A stretch of DNA of 64,000 bases from Methylococcus mesophilus (lineage in GTDB: Bacteria; Pseudomonadota; Gammaproteobacteria; Methylococcales; Methylococcaceae): assembly GCF_026247885.1 (NCBI RefSeq), contig NZ_CP110921.1, forward strand, positions 1,178,001 to 1,242,000, read 5' to 3'. Each line of letters opens with the position of its first letter. Within the stretch, counting starts at the first letter, position 1. The translations under genes were made by a program, and so were the position numbers. The notes below the pieces were generated by a model. That model was given only the letters and a program-made list of their open reading frames with translations, was not told where the DNA came from and did no database searches. Shown here one piece after another: positions 9,179 through 16,509 of the stretch.

Positions 9179-10813
9179 TCATCTGAAATTCGGGGCGATG
9201 ACGCGCAAGCCATCGATCTCTCCGGCGAAGTCCGCCTTCGAGACGCGGCCGGAGACCAGGGCCCATAACGGCCCATCTTCAAATACGTATAACGTATCGC
9301 GGGACAGCTCGTTGCGGTACAAGGACAAAGCCAGCTCGCGTGCGACACGATCGATCTTGGCGTTATCAACTCTGCCGAAATAGGCCGCGTTCACCGTCAT
9401 CCCGTTCCTCGCAGCGAAGTGCGCCAAGGGCACCCAATTGGCCGGCTCGTTTTTCGGCGGAACGAACACAATATGTCTATATTTGGCGGCTATGTCAGTC
9501 CACTCCAGCGAAGTCAAGGGAGACGACCAGGTATATCGGCTGGTAAACATATCCCGCAGCCGGGCCAAGGCCGGGGACATGTCCGACACCTGCACGAGAA
9601 GCATCAGCACACATAGAATTCTGGCCGTTTTTATTTCCAGTTTTTTGAAAACAATATAAAAAGCTGCTATGTATATGACATAGAAAACCGGCCAGAACAT
9701 TCTTCCTGCCGCTCTAAATATCCGTGTCAGAGGCTCAACCGGCGCCGGAACACCATAGGAAATTAATTCATGGCTTCCAAACGCAATATGGTTTGAAATC
9801 GCGAACAGATATAGACATAGCGATAACAGGACTAACGGCGCGAGCCGCTTGGCATTCCATTCCAGACCATGGGACTTCAGCGTTTCGTACAGCCCCACGA
9901 ACAAAAGGCCCAAAATTCCCAGACCGAGGTAACTGAATCCACCATAATCTCCCGGTCCTTGTTTCTGGTCGCGCAGTAATATCGACCAGCCGGAATCGGG
10001 GTCGACCGGAGCCAGAACATTCATTCTATAATATCCGAAGCCACCGATTTCAACCCCGGTCCCCACCATGAAATATCCGACAACCCACATCACCAATACC
10101 GTGACGGTAGTTCCGGCACCAAACACGGCGACGCAGCCCGCAGTATTCGCCTGCGCCAGCCAACGGCGCTGCAAGAGATCGGCCACGAAAATCCCGGCAA
10201 CCATGAAAAGAAGATAAGCGTGTATAAGTGCCGTCACCGCCAGCAGCAAATACCACGACGAACTGCTGAACGGCCGCCTCACATAAAGATACAAACCCGC
10301 CAGCAACACCCATTGAGCGAACAGAGCATAATGAGCCGTTAGCCGCCAAAGCGCGGGTGGAGCCAGAGCAAAAAACACGCAGCCTGTCAGCGCGAGAATT
10401 CTGTCGTTGCCAATAGCGAAGAGAATCTTCCAGGCAAACATCGCCTGCAGACAAAATGACGCCAGTATCCAGAATCCGGAGTACTGAAACGGCTCTGGCA
10501 GAACCCCGTCAAACGGCTTCAGCAGAAGCGCCAACAAAGGTATCGAGTCGGTAAATACGATCGAGCTGCTGATCTCGCCGCCGTAGGCAGGATTGGCGCC
10601 GAGCGGGAACTGCAAAACCGGCGAGTGGCGGAAGAACTCCCAGCCGAGGTAGTGCATGGTGCGATCGACCATGATGGCATCCTGCCCTATCAGCCAATCG
10701 ACGTAGCCGGGATCGAGCACCCGTCCGCCGGTCAGCGCAACGAATACCACCAGTCCCACGAGGGAAGCGGACACCGGATTGATTGCCTCCCGGTGCCAGG
10801 CTGCATCATTCAT
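9179..10813 (-). CDS. Polytopic membrane protein, DUF6311/glycosyltransferase-like
   Basis: 544 residues with about ten to twelve predicted membrane segments, beginning near SASLVGLVVFVALTGG. A large loop after the first segment contains DWLIGQDAIMVDRTMHYLG and FPLGANPAYGGEISSSIVF, the acidic first-loop pattern of lipid-linked sugar transferases of the GT-C fold and of the DUF6311 family. The last 110 residues (WSSPLTSLEWTDIAAKYRH onwards) are soluble. The ATG at 10813 has GGAAG upstream. Parts of the gene, for example around 9640-9680, are much richer in A and T than the neighbours, which suggests acquisition by transfer. Its substrate and role in surface glycans are inference. Confidence 0.65.
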   Translation of the reverse strand: MNDAAWHREAINPVSASLVGLVVFVALTGGRVLDPGYVDWLIGQDAIMVDRTMHYLGWEFFRHSPVLQFPLGANPAYGGEISSSIVFTDSIPLLALLLKPFDGVLPEPFQYSGFWILASFCLQAMFAWKILFAIGNDRILALTGCVFFALAPPALWRLTAHYALFAQWVLLAGLYLYVRRPFSSSSWYLLLAVTALIHAYLLFMVAGIFVADLLQRRWLAQANTAGCVAVFGAGTTVTVLVMWVVGYFMVGTGVEIGGFGYYRMNVLAPVDPDSGWSILLRDQKQGPGDYGGFSYLGLGILGLLFVGLYETLKSHGLEWNAKRLAPLVLLSLCLYLFAISNHIAFGSHELISYGVPAPVEPLTRIFRAAGRMFWPVFYVIYIAAFYIVFKKLEIKTARILCVLMLLVQVSDMSPALARLRDMFTSRYTWSSPLTSLEWTDIAAKYRHIVFVPPKNEPANWVPLAHFAARNGMTVNAAYFGRVDNAKIDRVARELALSLYRNELSRDTLYVFEDGPLWALVSGRVSKADFAGEIDGLRVIAPNFR

Positions 10814-10869
10814 CGCTTCCGCCTCCCAAAGAGATTTCCCGACTCAGCACACATCATCCAGTGTTTGTC

Positions 10870-13440
10870 TCACCCCCGAGCGGGCAGCCGGCTGTCCAAC
10901 ATCTGACCCAGCGATTCGATGTCCACCGGCTTGGTCAGGTGATCGTCCATGCCGGCAAGTGCAAATTTCTCCTGATCGCCGGCGACTGCGCTGGCTGTGA
11001 GAGCAATGACGGGTATTGTCGGATCACAGGCACCCGCCTTCCCCGCCCGAATCAGCCGGGTGGTTTCGTAGCCGTCCATTTCGGGCATCAGGCAATCCAT
11101 GAGCACCAGATGGTACCGGCGTTCGCCCAGAGCCCGGAGGCAAGCCCGCCCGTCGCCTACCGCGTCGGCGGCGAATCCCAGCCTCTCGAGAATGGCGAGC
11201 AGCAGCTTGCGGTTGACGGGGCTGTCGTCGGCCACGAGGACCCTCCAAGGGCGCATCGACACGGGCGGAATCCCGCCCATGGCCGGACCAGGCGCCCAAG
11301 CGCCGGCTTGGGGTTCGGGCTGGCTGACTGGATCGACGGCGCCGGCCGACCCGCTCAAAGTCTGGCCGTTCCGGAGAAACCCGTGCGTCTTGCCGAAAAC
11401 CGCGGTGAACCAGAAACGCGAACCCTGCCCGTCTTCGCTGTCGACTCCGCATTCGCCCCCCATGAGCGTCACCAGTTTCCTGCTGATGGCGAGTCCCAGG
11501 CCCGTCCCGCCGTATTTCCGCGTGGTCGAACCGTCCGCCTGTTCGAACGGCGAGAATATCCGGTCCTTACAGTCCGCCGGAATACCGATACCGGTATCCG
11601 TAACGGTGAAACGCAGGGTCGCGGCCTCCGGCGTCTCCTGTTCCAGCGAAACTCTGAGCGCCACTTCCCCCCGCGCAGTGAATTTGACCGCGTTCCCGAC
11701 CAGATTGGCGAGGATCTGGCGCAGTGCGCCGTGATCGCCCTTCACCCAGTCCGGCACCGCGGATTCCACGTAACAGTGAAGTTCAAGGCTTCTGCTCAGA
11801 GCCTGCGCCCGGAACAACCCGATCGCCGCGTCGACGACCTCCCGCAGTTGGAATTCGGCCGGCTTGAGTTCGAGCTTTCCCGCTTCGATCTTGGACAGGT
11901 CCAGAATGTCGTCGAGCATCGCCAGCAAGGTCCGGCCGCTGCCGCGGATAATCTCCGCATACTCTCTCTGCCCCGCCTCCAGCGCGCCGTGGAGCAGGAG
12001 TTCCACGGCACTCAACATGCCGTGCAAGGGCGTGCGGATCTCATGGCTCATACGGGCCAGGAAGTCGCTTTTGGCCCGGGAGGCGGCCTCGGCCGCCTCC
12101 CGGGCACGGCGCGAGGCGGCTGCGATCCGTTCCTGCCGGCGGTATAGCAGGAAGGACAGCACGCCTGCCTCCACGACGACCGTCATAACGGGCGAGGCGA
12201 AATCGAGAGCCACACCGGCGCCGGTGAACGTTCCAACACCAAGCCCCACGAGCGCCGAGACGAGCGCCACGACTCCAAGCGTCGCCCGCAGCGCCGGCAA
12301 AAGGGCGAACAGCAGGGCTGTCACCAAGCCGGAGGCCAGAGTCGTGCCCAAGACGAACGCTTCCTGCCACGACGGCTCGCGGTAATAAGCCCCGGACAGG
12401 CTACCGTCAATGAGCACGGCGTGCGCCTCCGCGCCGGACAAGTCCGGCGCGACGGCGGTACGGTGCAGATCGCCCAGCCCCAGGGCGGAGGAACCGACCA
12501 GCACTGTCCGTCCTGCCAAGGTCTCAGGGGAGTACGCTTCCCGCAGAATGTCGAGGGCGGAGACCCTCTGGTGAGCATGACCCGCCGTCTGAAACCGCAG
12601 CAGCGCCACGCCTTGCCGGTCCACCGGAACAGTCAGATGGCCGAGTTTCAGCACCGGCCCGAACGCATCGGCCCCCACCTCGACGGCATCGGCACCGGCG
12701 ACGCGCATCAACAGCGCCAGCGAGAGGCTCGGGTACCACTGCCCTTCGTAGGCATGCAGCAGAGGCTGGCGCCGCAGACGTCCGTCCGGGTCGGTCGCGG
12801 TATTGATGAACCCGTGGCCGGCGAGCCCGCTGTGCACGGGAAAGGTATTGCAAAGCACGCTCTTCCCCTCGGGCGGGACGATGGCTTGACGCGCGCCGCT
12901 GATCGCAAGGGGAGCCAGAGCGCAGCGTGGTCCGGTGTCACGCAGATCGGGAGGGAAGTAGATCGAACCGACGGTCCCGCTGGCGGCGAGAACCGCGCCC
13001 AGGTAGCCGTCGTTGTCCTCCATCCCCGGCGGCACACCGCTGAAACCCAGTTCGAGCCCGAACTCGCGCCGGAAGCTGTCCCGTAGCGTGGAAAGCGAGG
13101 TGCGATCCGGCTCCGGGAACAGGATGTCGAGACCGATGGCCCGCGGCTTGGCAGAAGCGATCGCCTTGATCAGCGTTGCCACTCGATAGCGAGGCCACGG
13201 CCACTGCCCCGCTGCCGACAAGGTGTTCTCGTCGATGTCCACGATGACGACGTGGGACTCGGCCCGCGCGGCGAGGCGCACACGGACCAGATGGTCGAAA
13301 ATGGCGCCATCGAGCCCGATCCAGGGCACCGAGTCGGCCAGCCGCAGCAGCAAAGCCAACCCGGTCAGCAGACAGCCCGCGGCCAATACCGCGCGGGACG
13401 GCGTCTCGCCGGTGCCGCCGAGCCTGGAACCGGCATTCAT
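10870..13440 (-). CDS. CHASE2-domain hybrid sensor histidine kinase
   Basis: 856 residues from ATG 13440. A longer open frame to 14001 is rejected because it overlaps the ompA-like gene. A first membrane segment (about 17-35) precedes the periplasmic CHASE2 sensor (about 45-310). Three further segments lie at about 345-430 (FVLGTTLASGLVTALLFAL, GVVALVSALVGLGVGTFTGA, VMTVVVEAGVLSFLLY), the usual CHASE2 layout. A coiled linker leads to HisKA (SHEIRTPLHGM), the ATPase (NLVGNAVKF, GTGLGLAISRKLV) and a C-terminal receiver with Asp in LVLMDCLMPEMDGYE. A hybrid kinase needs an Hpt carrier, and one is encoded at 15853-16509. It follows FecR and OmpA-like genes on the same strand. Confidence 0.93.
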   Translation of the reverse strand: MNAGSRLGGTGETPSRAVLAAGCLLTGLALLLRLADSVPWIGLDGAIFDHLVRVRLAARAESHVVIVDIDENTLSAAGQWPWPRYRVATLIKAIASAKPRAIGLDILFPEPDRTSLSTLRDSFRREFGLELGFSGVPPGMEDNDGYLGAVLAASGTVGSIYFPPDLRDTGPRCALAPLAISGARQAIVPPEGKSVLCNTFPVHSGLAGHGFINTATDPDGRLRRQPLLHAYEGQWYPSLSLALLMRVAGADAVEVGADAFGPVLKLGHLTVPVDRQGVALLRFQTAGHAHQRVSALDILREAYSPETLAGRTVLVGSSALGLGDLHRTAVAPDLSGAEAHAVLIDGSLSGAYYREPSWQEAFVLGTTLASGLVTALLFALLPALRATLGVVALVSALVGLGVGTFTGAGVALDFASPVMTVVVEAGVLSFLLYRRQERIAAASRRAREAAEAASRAKSDFLARMSHEIRTPLHGMLSAVELLLHGALEAGQREYAEIIRGSGRTLLAMLDDILDLSKIEAGKLELKPAEFQLREVVDAAIGLFRAQALSRSLELHCYVESAVPDWVKGDHGALRQILANLVGNAVKFTARGEVALRVSLEQETPEAATLRFTVTDTGIGIPADCKDRIFSPFEQADGSTTRKYGGTGLGLAISRKLVTLMGGECGVDSEDGQGSRFWFTAVFGKTHGFLRNGQTLSGSAGAVDPVSQPEPQAGAWAPGPAMGGIPPVSMRPWRVLVADDSPVNRKLLLAILERLGFAADAVGDGRACLRALGERRYHLVLMDCLMPEMDGYETTRLIRAGKAGACDPTIPVIALTASAVAGDQEKFALAGMDDHLTKPVDIESLGQMLDSRLPARG

Positions 13441-13463
13441 GGACCGTCTGCCCGTCCGCCGCC

Positions 13464-14048
13464 TCAGCGCACGAAGACCTCGACCCGCCGGTTTCTCGGC
13501 TCCTCCACCCCCTCCGCGGCGGGAAACAACGGCGCGCGGAAGCCGTAGCTCTCCACCCGCATGATCTTCGGATCTATGCCCTCTTGCAGCAGCAGCGAAC
13601 GGACGGCATCCGCCCGTGCCGCCGACAGCCGCTCGTTGTGGTCGAAGTTGCCGACCTGATCGCTGTGGCCGATCAGCGTCACTTCGGGCAGAGGGCGCGC
13701 CTTGATCGCCCGCGCGATCTCCGGAATTTCCGCTTTGGAATCGGGCTTGGGTTCGGCCGAATCCTTGCCGAAATACAGCAAGTAGCTCAGCGGCTTGGCC
13801 GGGGCGGCCGCCAGCGCGGCACCGAACAGCGTCTGCAGCTTCGCTTCGTCCATGGGCCGGGGCTCGGAAATCTGGTTGGTCACATCCACATAAGCCGACG
13901 CTTCGGCGATCGTGCGGCTGGCGCCGCCGCCGGAGACTTCCACCCGTCCCAGCTTGCCGTCGTCGTCCGGCACCAGAACCACGGTGGTCGCCGGTGCGCA
14001 TGCCGCCAGCAGCAGACCGAGCAGCGAGATAAAACCGATACGTTTCAT
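13464..14048 (-). CDS. OmpA-family lipoprotein (peptidoglycan-binding)
   Basis: 194 residues. MKRIGFISLLGLLLAAC is a lipoprotein signal with lipobox LAAC. The C-terminal half is an OmpA domain: LSYLLYFGKDSAEPKPDSKA, then VTLIGHSDQVGNFDHNERLS and RADAVRSLLLQEG, ending NRRVEVFVR. The Asp and Arg that hold diaminopimelate are at the usual places (HSDQ and NRRVEV). It should tether the envelope to peptidoglycan. It sits 10 bases after the FecR-domain gene and 23 bases before the CHASE2 kinase, so the three are one unit. A role as periplasmic partner of the kinase is inferred from this position. Confidence 0.88.
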   Translation of the reverse strand: MKRIGFISLLGLLLAACAPATTVVLVPDDDGKLGRVEVSGGGASRTIAEASAYVDVTNQISEPRPMDEAKLQTLFGAALAAAPAKPLSYLLYFGKDSAEPKPDSKAEIPEIARAIKARPLPEVTLIGHSDQVGNFDHNERLSAARADAVRSLLLQEGIDPKIMRVESYGFRAPLFPAAEGVEEPRNRRVEVFVR

Positions 14049-14058
14049 CGCGATCTCC

Positions 14059-14496
14059 CTACTCCGCCCTGACCAGGAACTTGGTGCCCCGAATCCCGAT
14101 GCTGGCTTGCGGCGTATTGACTTTCACCGCTTCCGGCGCGAGCTTTCCGAACTTGCCGGTGGAAAAAACCGCCGAACCCTTGCGCAGGTAAACGTCGAAG
14201 GCATAGTCCTGCTTGATGGGGACGAACCGGTATCGATCGACCTTGAGCTCGGAACCGGGCCCCATGCTAATCCGGGTGCCATCCTGGAAACTGACGCCCG
14301 CGGAACTCGCATCGGCGGTCTTGAGCACATCGCCGGTATACAACGGCGCCCCGGCCGAGAGCGCGATGATCTGATCGTTGCGCGAGACCTCGACCTTCCC
14401 GCTTGCGGTTTTCAGACTCGCCACGGGGTCGTCGGCCAAGGCGGCGGCCGAAACGAGCGCGGTTGCCAACGCCACTGTGGAACGAATGTAGTTCAT
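14059..14496 (-). CDS. Periplasmic FecR-domain protein
   Basis: 145 residues from ATG 14496; a longer frame to 14745 runs back through the end of the cyclase gene at 14573. A signal peptide, MNYIRSTVALATALVSAAA, ends near ALA. The FecR domain follows: GKVEVSRNDQIIALSAGAPL, GDVLKTADASSAGVSF, then DGTRISMGPGSELKVDRY, and NTPQASIGIRGTKFLVRAE. There is no membrane anchor and no anti-sigma part, so it is not a FecR transmembrane regulator. Stand-alone periplasmic FecR proteins are often encoded beside CHASE2 signalling enzymes, as here; they may sense the envelope state for the kinase. Function is inferred. Confidence 0.88.
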   Translation of the reverse strand: MNYIRSTVALATALVSAAALADDPVASLKTASGKVEVSRNDQIIALSAGAPLYTGDVLKTADASSAGVSFQDGTRISMGPGSELKVDRYRFVPIKQDYAFDVYLRKGSAVFSTGKFGKLAPEAVKVNTPQASIGIRGTKFLVRAE

Positions 14497-14572
14497 GCCA
14501 AATTTCCTGCGGTTTCGTAGGGAAAGCAGGCATTGTCGGCGGCGGCCCCCCGCGCCGCAAGTATAAAGACCG

Positions 14573-15856
14573 TCAGTACACGGTGCCGTCCCGCCCGGCA
14601 TCGAAAATCCTGTAGCGATGCCTACCCGATGCCTTGGCGCGGTACATCGCCCGGTCTGCCCGCTGCAGCAGCAATTCCGGCTCCGCTCCATCGGCCGGAC
14701 AGAACGCCACGCCGATGCTGGCGGTAACGACGATGTGTTCCTCAAAGAGAGACACGGGCTCGGCTATGGCCTCCAGGATTCTGGCGAACACCGTTTCGAT
14801 GTCGCTCGCAATCTCCAGATCCGGCAGGATCAGGACGAATTCATCACCGCCGAACCGCCCGACGGTGTCGCTCATCCGCAATACTCCGCTCAGCCGCTCG
14901 GCGACCCGGGCCAGGACGGCGTCGCCCGCGTGGTGGCCCAGCCTGTCGTTCACCGGCTTGAAGCCGTCCAGATCCAGCACCGCGACCGCCAGCGGCGTCC
15001 GATGCCGCAGACTCAGGGCAATAGCGTGTTGCAGACGGTCCATCAGCAGGCGGCGGTTGGGCAGGCCGGTCAGTGCGTCGTGATAGGCGAGGCGCTCGAG
15101 TTGCCGGGCCTGGTCCAGCAGGAAGCGGATGTCGGAATGAAGGGCGACGAAGTGGCTGGTTCCGCCTCCGGCATTCTCGACCCGCGAAAGGTTGAGCAAC
15201 TGGGGATGGCTCTCCCCGTTCTTCATGCGGCTCCAGATTTCGCCTGCCCAGTGGCCGTTGCGCCGTACCGCCTCCCATATGTGATCGTAGAAAGACGCTT
15301 CGTGCCGGTCGGACTGCAGCATGGTCATGTTCAAACCCAGCAGGTCCTCCGGCCGGTAACCGGTCATGCCGCAGAAAGCCTCGTTCACTTTGATGATGAT
15401 CCTGTCGGCATCGGCCACGAGGATGCCTTCCATCGTGTTGTGAAACACGCTGGCTGCCAACCGCAATTCGGCAAACGCCCTGTGAAGTTCGAGCTGGTTG
15501 CGGATGCGGGTGCGGAGGACGGGGATGTTGATCGGCTTGCTGATGTAGTCGGCAGCGCCGGCTTGGAAGCCGTGCACCTCGTTCTCTTCGCCGCAGGCCG
15601 AAGTGATGAAAATGATGGGGATGTCGCGGGTGGCCGGATCGGCCTTGAGGCGTCTGCACACCTGATAACCGTCCATCGCCGGCATGACGACGTCGAGCAG
15701 CACCAGGTCGGGGGGAAGCCGCCGGGCCAGCCGCAGCGCCTCGTCGCCCGAAGTGGAGAACCGGACTTCGTAATCGTCGCCCAATGCGCCGCCCAACAGG
15801 CGGATATTGGAAGGCGAATCGTCGACGATGAGCAGGGTCGGCCGATATTGGCTCAC
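14573..15856 (-). CDS. Response regulator with PAS and GGDEF output (diguanylate cyclase)
   Basis: 427 residues from a GTG at 15856, which overlaps the Hpt gene stop as GTGA and has GGAAGG upstream. The receiver (about 1-125) has TLLIVDDSPSNIRLL, Asp in LVLLDVVMPAMDGY and Lys in ADYISKPINI. A PAS domain (about 135-250) is followed by GGDEF (about 265-420), with intact RFGGDEF and an RMSD inhibitory site at the proper distance. The protein should make cyclic di-GMP when its receiver is phosphorylated. The phosphate donor is probably the Hpt protein encoded immediately upstream, charged by the CHASE2 hybrid kinase downstream. Confidence 0.94.
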   Translation of the reverse strand: MSQYRPTLLIVDDSPSNIRLLGGALGDDYEVRFSTSGDEALRLARRLPPDLVLLDVVMPAMDGYQVCRRLKADPATRDIPIIFITSACGEENEVHGFQAGAADYISKPINIPVLRTRIRNQLELHRAFAELRLAASVFHNTMEGILVADADRIIIKVNEAFCGMTGYRPEDLLGLNMTMLQSDRHEASFYDHIWEAVRRNGHWAGEIWSRMKNGESHPQLLNLSRVENAGGGTSHFVALHSDIRFLLDQARQLERLAYHDALTGLPNRRLLMDRLQHAIALSLRHRTPLAVAVLDLDGFKPVNDRLGHHAGDAVLARVAERLSGVLRMSDTVGRFGGDEFVLILPDLEIASDIETVFARILEAIAEPVSLFEEHIVVTASIGVAFCPADGAEPELLLQRADRAMYRAKASGRHRYRIFDAGRDGTVY

Positions 15857-16509
15857 GGCTCGCCCTTCCTCGGCCAGACCCGGAGCGCCGCTTCCGCACG
15901 GAGGCTCTGCAACGCCTCCTCGAATCGAAGCCGTGCCATCAGGACGCGCAGGCCGGCGAGGAAAGGCCGGTATTCGGGGCCGGCAAGCAGCGCTTCCAGC
16001 CGGTCCAGCGTGTCGCTCGCACGGAGACTGCGGTCGGCCAACTGGCTTTCCAGCGTCGTGAGAACGGCGCCGAGAGGAGGCGCATCGGCTGCGGCGCGCG
16101 GAGTCTCCGCCACCGCAGCCGCCTCAGCGGGAAGGCCGGCCTGGAGCTCCCGCACGCTCCGGGCCACCGCATCCGCCAGCATCTCGGTCGAGGCAGCAAT
16201 CTCCCGCTCGGAACACGCCCGGAGCGCGGCATCCAACTGGCCGGCCGCGGTCCGGACCGCAGTAATGCCAAGGTTGCCGGCCTCGCCCTTCAGGGTATGA
16301 GCCAGGAGGCGCAGGGCTTCGGCGTCCGGACCAAGGCCAAGCCGGCGGAGGCGTTCCGGCGTGTCCTGATGGACGTCGGCGAAGGCCCGCAGGCTGTCCA
16401 GATAAAGTTCCCGGTCCTGTCCCAGGCGCCTCAACGCCGAGGCGGTCTCGACTCCCGGCAACTGCGGATATCCGTCGAGTTGGCTTTCGGGGGTGACGCT
16501 GCCGTTCAT
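15853..16509 (-). CDS. Hpt-domain phosphotransfer protein
   Basis: 218 residues, no membrane segment. The Hpt domain (about 20-120) has the phospho-accepting His in RLLAHTLKGEAGNLGITAV, the classic HxLKGxAxNLG pattern. The C-terminal half (about 125-215) is Ala- and Leu-rich, probably helical, and not recognised. The gene overlaps the receiver-PAS-GGDEF gene by four bases. Its job would be to carry phosphate from the receiver of the CHASE2 hybrid kinase to the receiver of the cyclase, completing a four-step relay. That wiring is inferred from the co-directional cluster. Confidence 0.88.
   Translation of the reverse strand: MNGSVTPESQLDGYPQLPGVETASALRRLGQDRELYLDSLRAFADVHQDTPERLRRLGLGPDAEALRLLAHTLKGEAGNLGITAVRTAAGQLDAALRACSEREIAASTEMLADAVARSVRELQAGLPAEAAAVAETPRAAADAPPLGAVLTTLESQLADRSLRASDTLDRLEALLAGPEYRPFLAGLRVLMARLRFEEALQSLRAEAALRVWPRKGEP

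Follow-up and report, generated by a model that had tools for sequence, protein, structure and literature searches.

A five-gene locus of Methylococcus mesophilus that probably links envelope state to cyclic di-GMP through a CHASE2 hybrid kinase and a separate Hpt protein

In the YfiBNR (TpbB) system of Pseudomonas aeruginosa, according to the part of its description cited here, YfiR represses YfiN and YfiB relieves that repression (PMC2837407). A FecR-domain periplasmic protein adjoins a CHASE2 histidine kinase in the BiofilmReg operon of Burkholderia and in PA4035-PA4036 of P. aeruginosa, and BiofilmReg is needed for biofilm in Burkholderia contaminans, as seen with an insertion in the regulator gene; the same source, in the sections relevant here, describes CHASE2 as a widely found sensor domain for which no signal is known (PMC5192318). 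CHASE2 adenylate cyclase clusters of the Campylobacterota also include a FecR-domain protein, at least in the sections of that report cited (PMC9239204). Here we describe a locus in a 64,000-nucleotide (nt) stretch of the genome of the methane-oxidising bacterium Methylococcus mesophilus (contig NZ_CP110921.1, positions 1,178,001 to 1,242,000; hereafter the window), where five genes on the minus strand, within window positions 10870-16509, encode in transcription order a stand-alone histidine phosphotransfer (Hpt) protein, a REC-PAS-GGDEF diguanylate cyclase, a short FecR-domain protein, an OmpA-like lipoprotein and a CHASE2 hybrid histidine kinase. We consider that these genes probably constitute a single circuit leading from the envelope to cyclic di-GMP (c-di-GMP). 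The types of part are already known (FecR beside CHASE2; OmpA-type lipoproteins controlling c-di-GMP), and the combination of five was not found described. Among open-licence papers, subscription literature lying outside the search, none brought together CHASE2, FecR and OmpA, or FecR, HD-GYP and OmpA, in agreement with the original prediction made from this DNA, which knew of no system with exactly these parts.

Open reading frames and Pfam matches, all above the curated cut-offs, bear out the gene order and common strand given in the original prediction, as well as its picture of a kinase that ends, and a cyclase that begins, with a receiver. The Hpt protein (15853..16509, 218 amino acids (aa)) has its phospho-His in the motif LAHTLKG and matches Pfam Hpt with 33.5 bits against a cut-off of 24.6. 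The cyclase (14573..15856, 427 aa) matches Response_reg, PAS and GGDEF and carries an RMSD motif. The FecR-domain protein (14059..14496, 145 aa; 52.1 bits) has an apparent signal peptide, judged by eye, and is taken as periplasmic, while the next gene (13464..14048, 194 aa) encodes a lipoprotein with the lipobox LAAC and a peptidoglycan-binding OmpA domain (60.8 bits). The kinase (10870..13440, 856 aa) has the architecture CHASE2 (178.8 bits)-HisKA-HATPase_c-Response_reg, without an Hpt of its own. Preferred starts are at 16509, 15856, 14496, 14048 and 13440; the mechanically called reading frames of the FecR and kinase genes are longer, and their shorter starts were chosen from alignment with relatives.

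The geometry is like that of YfiB, YfiR and YfiN, with the OmpA-like lipoprotein in the outer membrane, the FecR protein in the periplasm and CHASE2 in the inner membrane, and by analogy the set is expected to function in the manner of YfiBNR, although it does not belong to that system. In the cited part of the YfiBNR description the periplasmic partner is YfiR, and the membrane protein, with its PAS-like, HAMP and GGDEF domains, is itself the cyclase (PMC2837407). In the window, by contrast, the periplasmic protein matches FecR and no other Pfam family over the cut-off, and GGDEF resides on a different protein from CHASE2-HisKA-HATPase-REC, which would act on the cyclase via the Hpt. The lipoprotein reaches 56.2 bits with the NCBIfam YfiB model, below its cut-off of 128, and is still a lipoprotein with an OmpA domain. 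BiofilmReg shares with the window a CHASE2 histidine kinase beside a FecR-domain protein, but has a CreB-like DNA-binding regulator and a LysM-FecR protein and, in the cited sections, no OmpA-like lipoprotein, Hpt or cyclase (PMC5192318); Pfam finds neither LysM in the window FecR protein nor a DNA-binding domain in the REC protein, and DUF4136, from a BiofilmReg protein, was not among the matches of the seven window proteins scanned. The Campylobacterota clusters differ by their cyclic AMP output, a phosphodiesterase and a TPR protein, and the cited portion of the report mentions no OmpA lipoprotein and gives no phosphorelay (PMC9239204). Hybrid kinases of the BarA/TorS/ArcB type, whose NCBIfam models were matched below cut-off, follow a similar logic of HisKA-HATPase-receiver and then Hpt, whereas here the Hpt is separate and the sensor is CHASE2.

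The circuit might operate as follows. By analogy with YfiBNR, a change in the wall or envelope would be sensed by the outer-membrane lipoprotein, which would bind peptidoglycan and, together with the small periplasmic FecR protein, set the state of CHASE2 as YfiB and YfiR do for YfiN, the signal passing from lipoprotein to FecR to CHASE2. The kinase would autophosphorylate at SHEIRTP, its own C-terminal receiver would take the phosphate, and from there the phosphate would pass by way of the separate Hpt to the receiver of the cyclase; we infer this direction of flow from the fusions and gene pairings presented below. Once phosphorylated, the REC-PAS-GGDEF protein would dimerise and make c-di-GMP. 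Its RMSD, five residues ahead of GGDEF, we take to be the RxxD product-inhibition site (I-site) and not a catalytic motif, so that product inhibition at this site is predicted.

The residues that such a relay would use are intact in the hybrid kinase (HisKA, HATPase and receiver), in the Hpt, which has both its phospho-His and the Hpt fold, and in the receiver of the terminal regulator. All five genomes that carry the set keep the Hpt phospho-His (LAHxLKG), the kinase H-box SHEIRTP, the lipobox (LAAC or LAGC), both receiver Asp residues (MDCLMP in the kinase receiver) and the GGDEF motif. The catalytic residues listed in the original prediction thus stand for phospho-His, receiver Asp and GGDEF, and not for the presumably inhibitory RMSD. 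The five genes are under purifying selection, with ratios of nonsynonymous to synonymous substitution (Ka/Ks) of 0.11-0.43 in three genome pairs; these values, and the absence of stops from 25/25 coding sequences checked, rule out random reading frames or decay. The predicted model of the Hpt protein (mean predicted local distance difference test score, pLDDT, 81.5) consists of two helical units, the second helical region being C-terminal as in fused hybrid kinases, and its best solved match is the Hpt domain 3myf (TM 0.79 by target length, with a Foldseek E of only 0.05).

Four of the six genomes of the genus have the full five-gene order (G000, which is the window genome, G001, G002 and G005), and a genome from another genus of the same family, G072, has all five genes in identical order, at identities to the window of 46% (Hpt), 67% (cyclase), 67% (FecR), 68% (OmpA) and 57% (kinase). 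A search with the CHASE2 region in 251 genomes of the order gave 81 matches at E <= 1e-12, only five of them at 60% identity or more; these are in the same five genomes, each of which carries the whole set. Among the best 80 of 557 confirmed relatives the complete order was present only in L015, which was counted once with G001. In the window moaA adjoins the set, whereas in G072 the two are about 0.54 Mb apart, the set near 3.43 Mb and moaA close to 2.89 Mb; in G002 the moaA side differs, with neither moaA nor the neighbouring lipoprotein gene in the DNA fetched upstream of the set. A chance neighbourhood is ruled out by an order kept in five genomes of two genera and at another chromosomal site in G072. 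Spacing is also conserved: the Hpt and cyclase genes overlap by 4 nt in 5/5 genomes, the FecR-OmpA intervals are 10, 10, 9, 10 and 4 nt, and the OmpA-kinase intervals are 23, 23, 20, 18 and 12 nt. The G001 kinase (L159/L015, 7241-10162) has an extra receiver-like insert between the ATPase and the final receiver, in a reading frame of 973 aa.

In the remaining two genomes of the genus, G003 and G004, the set has been lost nearly whole, once or twice. No CHASE2 gene and no cyclase ortholog were found in either, the best cyclase matches being a longer paralog or other PAS-GGDEF proteins. What remains at moaA in G003 is the beginning of the Hpt gene, as a stub, and a 249-base fragment of the kinase receiver (79% identical; L281, about 10332-11100), followed by unrelated sequence with a transposase-like reading frame, presumably part of an insertion-sequence transposase. 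In G004 the Hpt start survives for about 23 bases, after which comes part of the DUF6311 gene that lies downstream of the set. In both genomes homology is lost no more than a few dozen bases into the Hpt gene; since they have no common sequence after this point and their right edges differ, the observations fit two separate losses as well as a single loss followed by erosion, and two independent events are not claimed. Our confidence in the circuit is unaffected by their number because the all-or-none pattern holds either way. The genomes of the genus contain 4, 4, 3 and 3 Hpt domains with the set and 2 and 2 without it.

The step from kinase to Hpt is supported because related loci encode CHASE2, kinase, receiver and Hpt as one protein: CHASE2-kinase-REC-Hpt in L001 and L006, and CHASE2-kinase-REC-REC-Hpt in L004, with Pfam confirming the kinase-Hpt fusion for L001 and L004, both from genomes labelled Deltaproteobacteria-type. 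An alignment of the window Hpt with the Hpt end of L004 spans about 200 residues (29.5% identity); the match to L001 and L006 is weaker, and with the fused kinase ends of L004 and L179 the alignment covers about 180-200 aa. The kinase receiver therefore plausibly feeds the Hpt. In a direct two-component wiring the kinase His would phosphorylate the cyclase receiver itself, while the kinase receiver served as a sink for phosphate and the Hpt drained it; some related kinases have no linked Hpt, and receivers acting as phosphate sinks are known in other systems. We regard this as very improbable, given that the Hpt His and the kinase receiver Asp are both kept in 5/5 genomes and that the Hpt is translationally coupled to the cyclase by the 4-nt overlap, as expected of a donor. 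In L004 (184-5030) the fused kinase is followed by a REC-SpoIIE phosphatase-type regulator, a like relay logic with a different output.

For the step from Hpt to cyclase, support comes from Hpt-ended hybrid kinases that directly precede REC-PAS-GGDEF genes. In the window genome itself, at L180 (G000:C1 2724316-2729912), a PAS-PAS-HK-REC-REC-Hpt kinase gene (HK, histidine kinase) overlaps by 4 nt a REC-PAS-GGDEF-EAL gene, the first part of whose product is 42-44% identical to the window cyclase. In G011, from another genus of the family, a REC-Hpt-ended kinase (L179) stands directly before a REC-PAS-GGDEF gene; the Hpt end shares 31% identity with the window Hpt, and the cyclase 51% with that of the window. 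The Hpt thus plausibly feeds the receiver of the REC-PAS-GGDEF protein, and the idea that this cyclase is the last target of the relay is a plausible one. The simplest history would be that a kinase-plus-cyclase output of this kind joined the FecR, OmpA and CHASE2 genes and that the Hpt split off as a gene of its own. L180 is a second relay in the window genome, unlinked to the five-gene set. Receiver similarity is a weak argument for partnership: the cyclase receiver is 51-52% identical to those beside L004 and L001, but also 46% identical to receivers of L012 and L021, loci in which no CHASE2 gene was observed.

Several observations weigh against a single circuit. The joint occurrence in relatives that the original prediction proposed as a check does hold where the kinase is present, since all five genes occur in every genome whose CHASE2 region reaches 60% identity, but the set is phylogenetically narrow (5/251 genomes of the order). 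A single transcript is not assured, as the cyclase-FecR gap is 76-82 nt within the genus (76, 76, 76 and 82 nt) and has a terminator-like site (14584-14569), one of 9 found against 5.3 expected (shuffle mean, standard deviation 2.2), only slightly above expectation; a promoter scan called no promoter-like sites and is uninformative on this point. At 4 of 11 CHASE2-kinase loci (L002, L003, L005 and L067) the kinase has a receiver and neither Hpt nor cyclase lies nearby in the fetched DNA, so that the CHASE2 kinase can do without such an output there and the full relay appears as a local variant. Gap, terminator-like site and unlinked loci would all suit two separate neighbours, in which the FecR-OmpA-CHASE2 kinase trio works by itself or on some other regulator while a different kinase serves the Hpt and cyclase. 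We think this quite unlikely: the two halves occur together in two genera at different sites, only 30 nt apart in G072, are absent together from G003 and G004, and have counterparts in the CHASE2 kinases fused to Hpt. The dedication of the Hpt is a further point. It is the only stand-alone one among the four Hpt of the genome, the others belonging to a CheA-like kinase and two hybrid kinases, and three further hybrid kinases without Hpt (L283, PAS-PAS-HK-REC; L284, HK-REC-REC; L285, PAS-HK-REC) could share it. The Hpt would then be a hub for several such kinases, with the cyclase gathering all their signals. This, too, we consider unlikely, although it deserves some weight: the Hpt and cyclase genes accompany the CHASE2 trio in 5/5 genomes, even at a different site, and in G003, a genome with no stand-alone Hpt, there is a HK-REC-REC hybrid that lacks an Hpt (open frame of 722 aa), so kinases of at least that type need not depend on such an Hpt.

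Returning to the single circuit, it divides naturally into a sensor trio, FecR-OmpA-CHASE2, which is widespread, and a two-gene relay output. The original prediction is partly upheld: the set acts as a unit, its order being the same in five genomes of two genera, and both relay steps are plausible. The window set fits the trio definition: genes for a short FecR protein, an OmpA-like protein and a CHASE2 sensor follow one another in this order on the same strand. We sorted 96 distinct CHASE2 loci by output after merging near-identical ones (G002 with the window); the loci had been gathered for similarity to the window kinase, and the profiles had been built up on these very loci, starting from window seeds. 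FecR and OmpA genes lie upstream in 28/30 assessable loci with HD-GYP or kinase output against 0/23 with cyclase (CYC) output (p = 4.8e-13, ignoring kinship and sampling). By class, they precede 19/20 HD-GYP loci, assigned by Pfam HD_5/HD in two representatives and the motif HHExxDGxGYP, and 9/10 assessable kinase loci (one more was not assessable). Among cyclase loci, FecR alone occurs in 2/23, with 30 not assessable owing to short flanks; GGDEF loci have FecR and OmpA in 0/3 and FecR alone in 3/3, SpoIIE loci have both in 1/1 (one not assessable) and other outputs in 2/5 (two not assessable). Records titled Desulfobacteraceae, Desulfobulbaceae, Desulfovibrio, Thiobacillus, Mariprofundus and others contain the trio, as do further genera of the order (L173, L240-L244). 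Across the order and the phylum, many CHASE2-cyclase genes (L221-L238, L254-L277) are preceded by a gene matching the HD-type profile or by an unassigned one, and not by FecR and OmpA.

HD-GYP proteins usually hydrolyse c-di-GMP. In the FecR-OmpA-CHASE2-HD-GYP loci (for example L008, L022, L062, L173 and L240-L244) the sensor trio is homologous to that of the window, but HD-GYP is fused to CHASE2 in place of a relay to a cyclase. A single type of sensor trio thus seems to be connected with c-di-GMP breakdown in some loci and with its synthesis in others. The trio may be an undescribed and widespread envelope sensor, fused to HD-GYP for breakdown in most lineages seen and working through a hybrid kinase, Hpt and REC-PAS-GGDEF for synthesis in Methylococcus relatives. 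It would then solve the same problem as YfiBNR a second time, by unrelated means and with outputs that can be exchanged; we consider the arguments for and against this wider proposal to be evenly balanced. Two conserved periplasmic partners offer a way into the question of CHASE2 input; one is an outer-membrane lipoprotein that binds peptidoglycan, which suggests that the input is the spacing of the envelope or the state of the wall. Should the proposal be right, the tie of the same trio to c-di-GMP breakdown or synthesis would let input-output logic be compared across natural variants, and a four-step relay would join the known ways in which bacteria couple envelope state to the sessile-motile decision.

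After the kinase, on the same strand, lies a gene for a DUF6311 membrane protein (9179-10813), which is kept in G002 and G005 and was not found adjoining the set in G001 or G072. The FecR protein was aligned with 14 homologs taken from trio loci, and its predicted model (mean pLDDT 63.7) is confident in the middle part only. By sequence its profile matches the cell-surface anchoring domain 5ix9 ("antifreeze protein" in PDB; E 5.8e-5), which we take to be an adhesin retention module. The model itself matches 5ix9 by Foldseek (TM 0.75 by target length, root-mean-square deviation 1.1 over 62 columns, E 2.3e-3), and the protein matches the NCBIfam LapA retention model weakly (19.3 bits, cut-off 50). 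FecR domains and adhesin retention modules may have a common fold.

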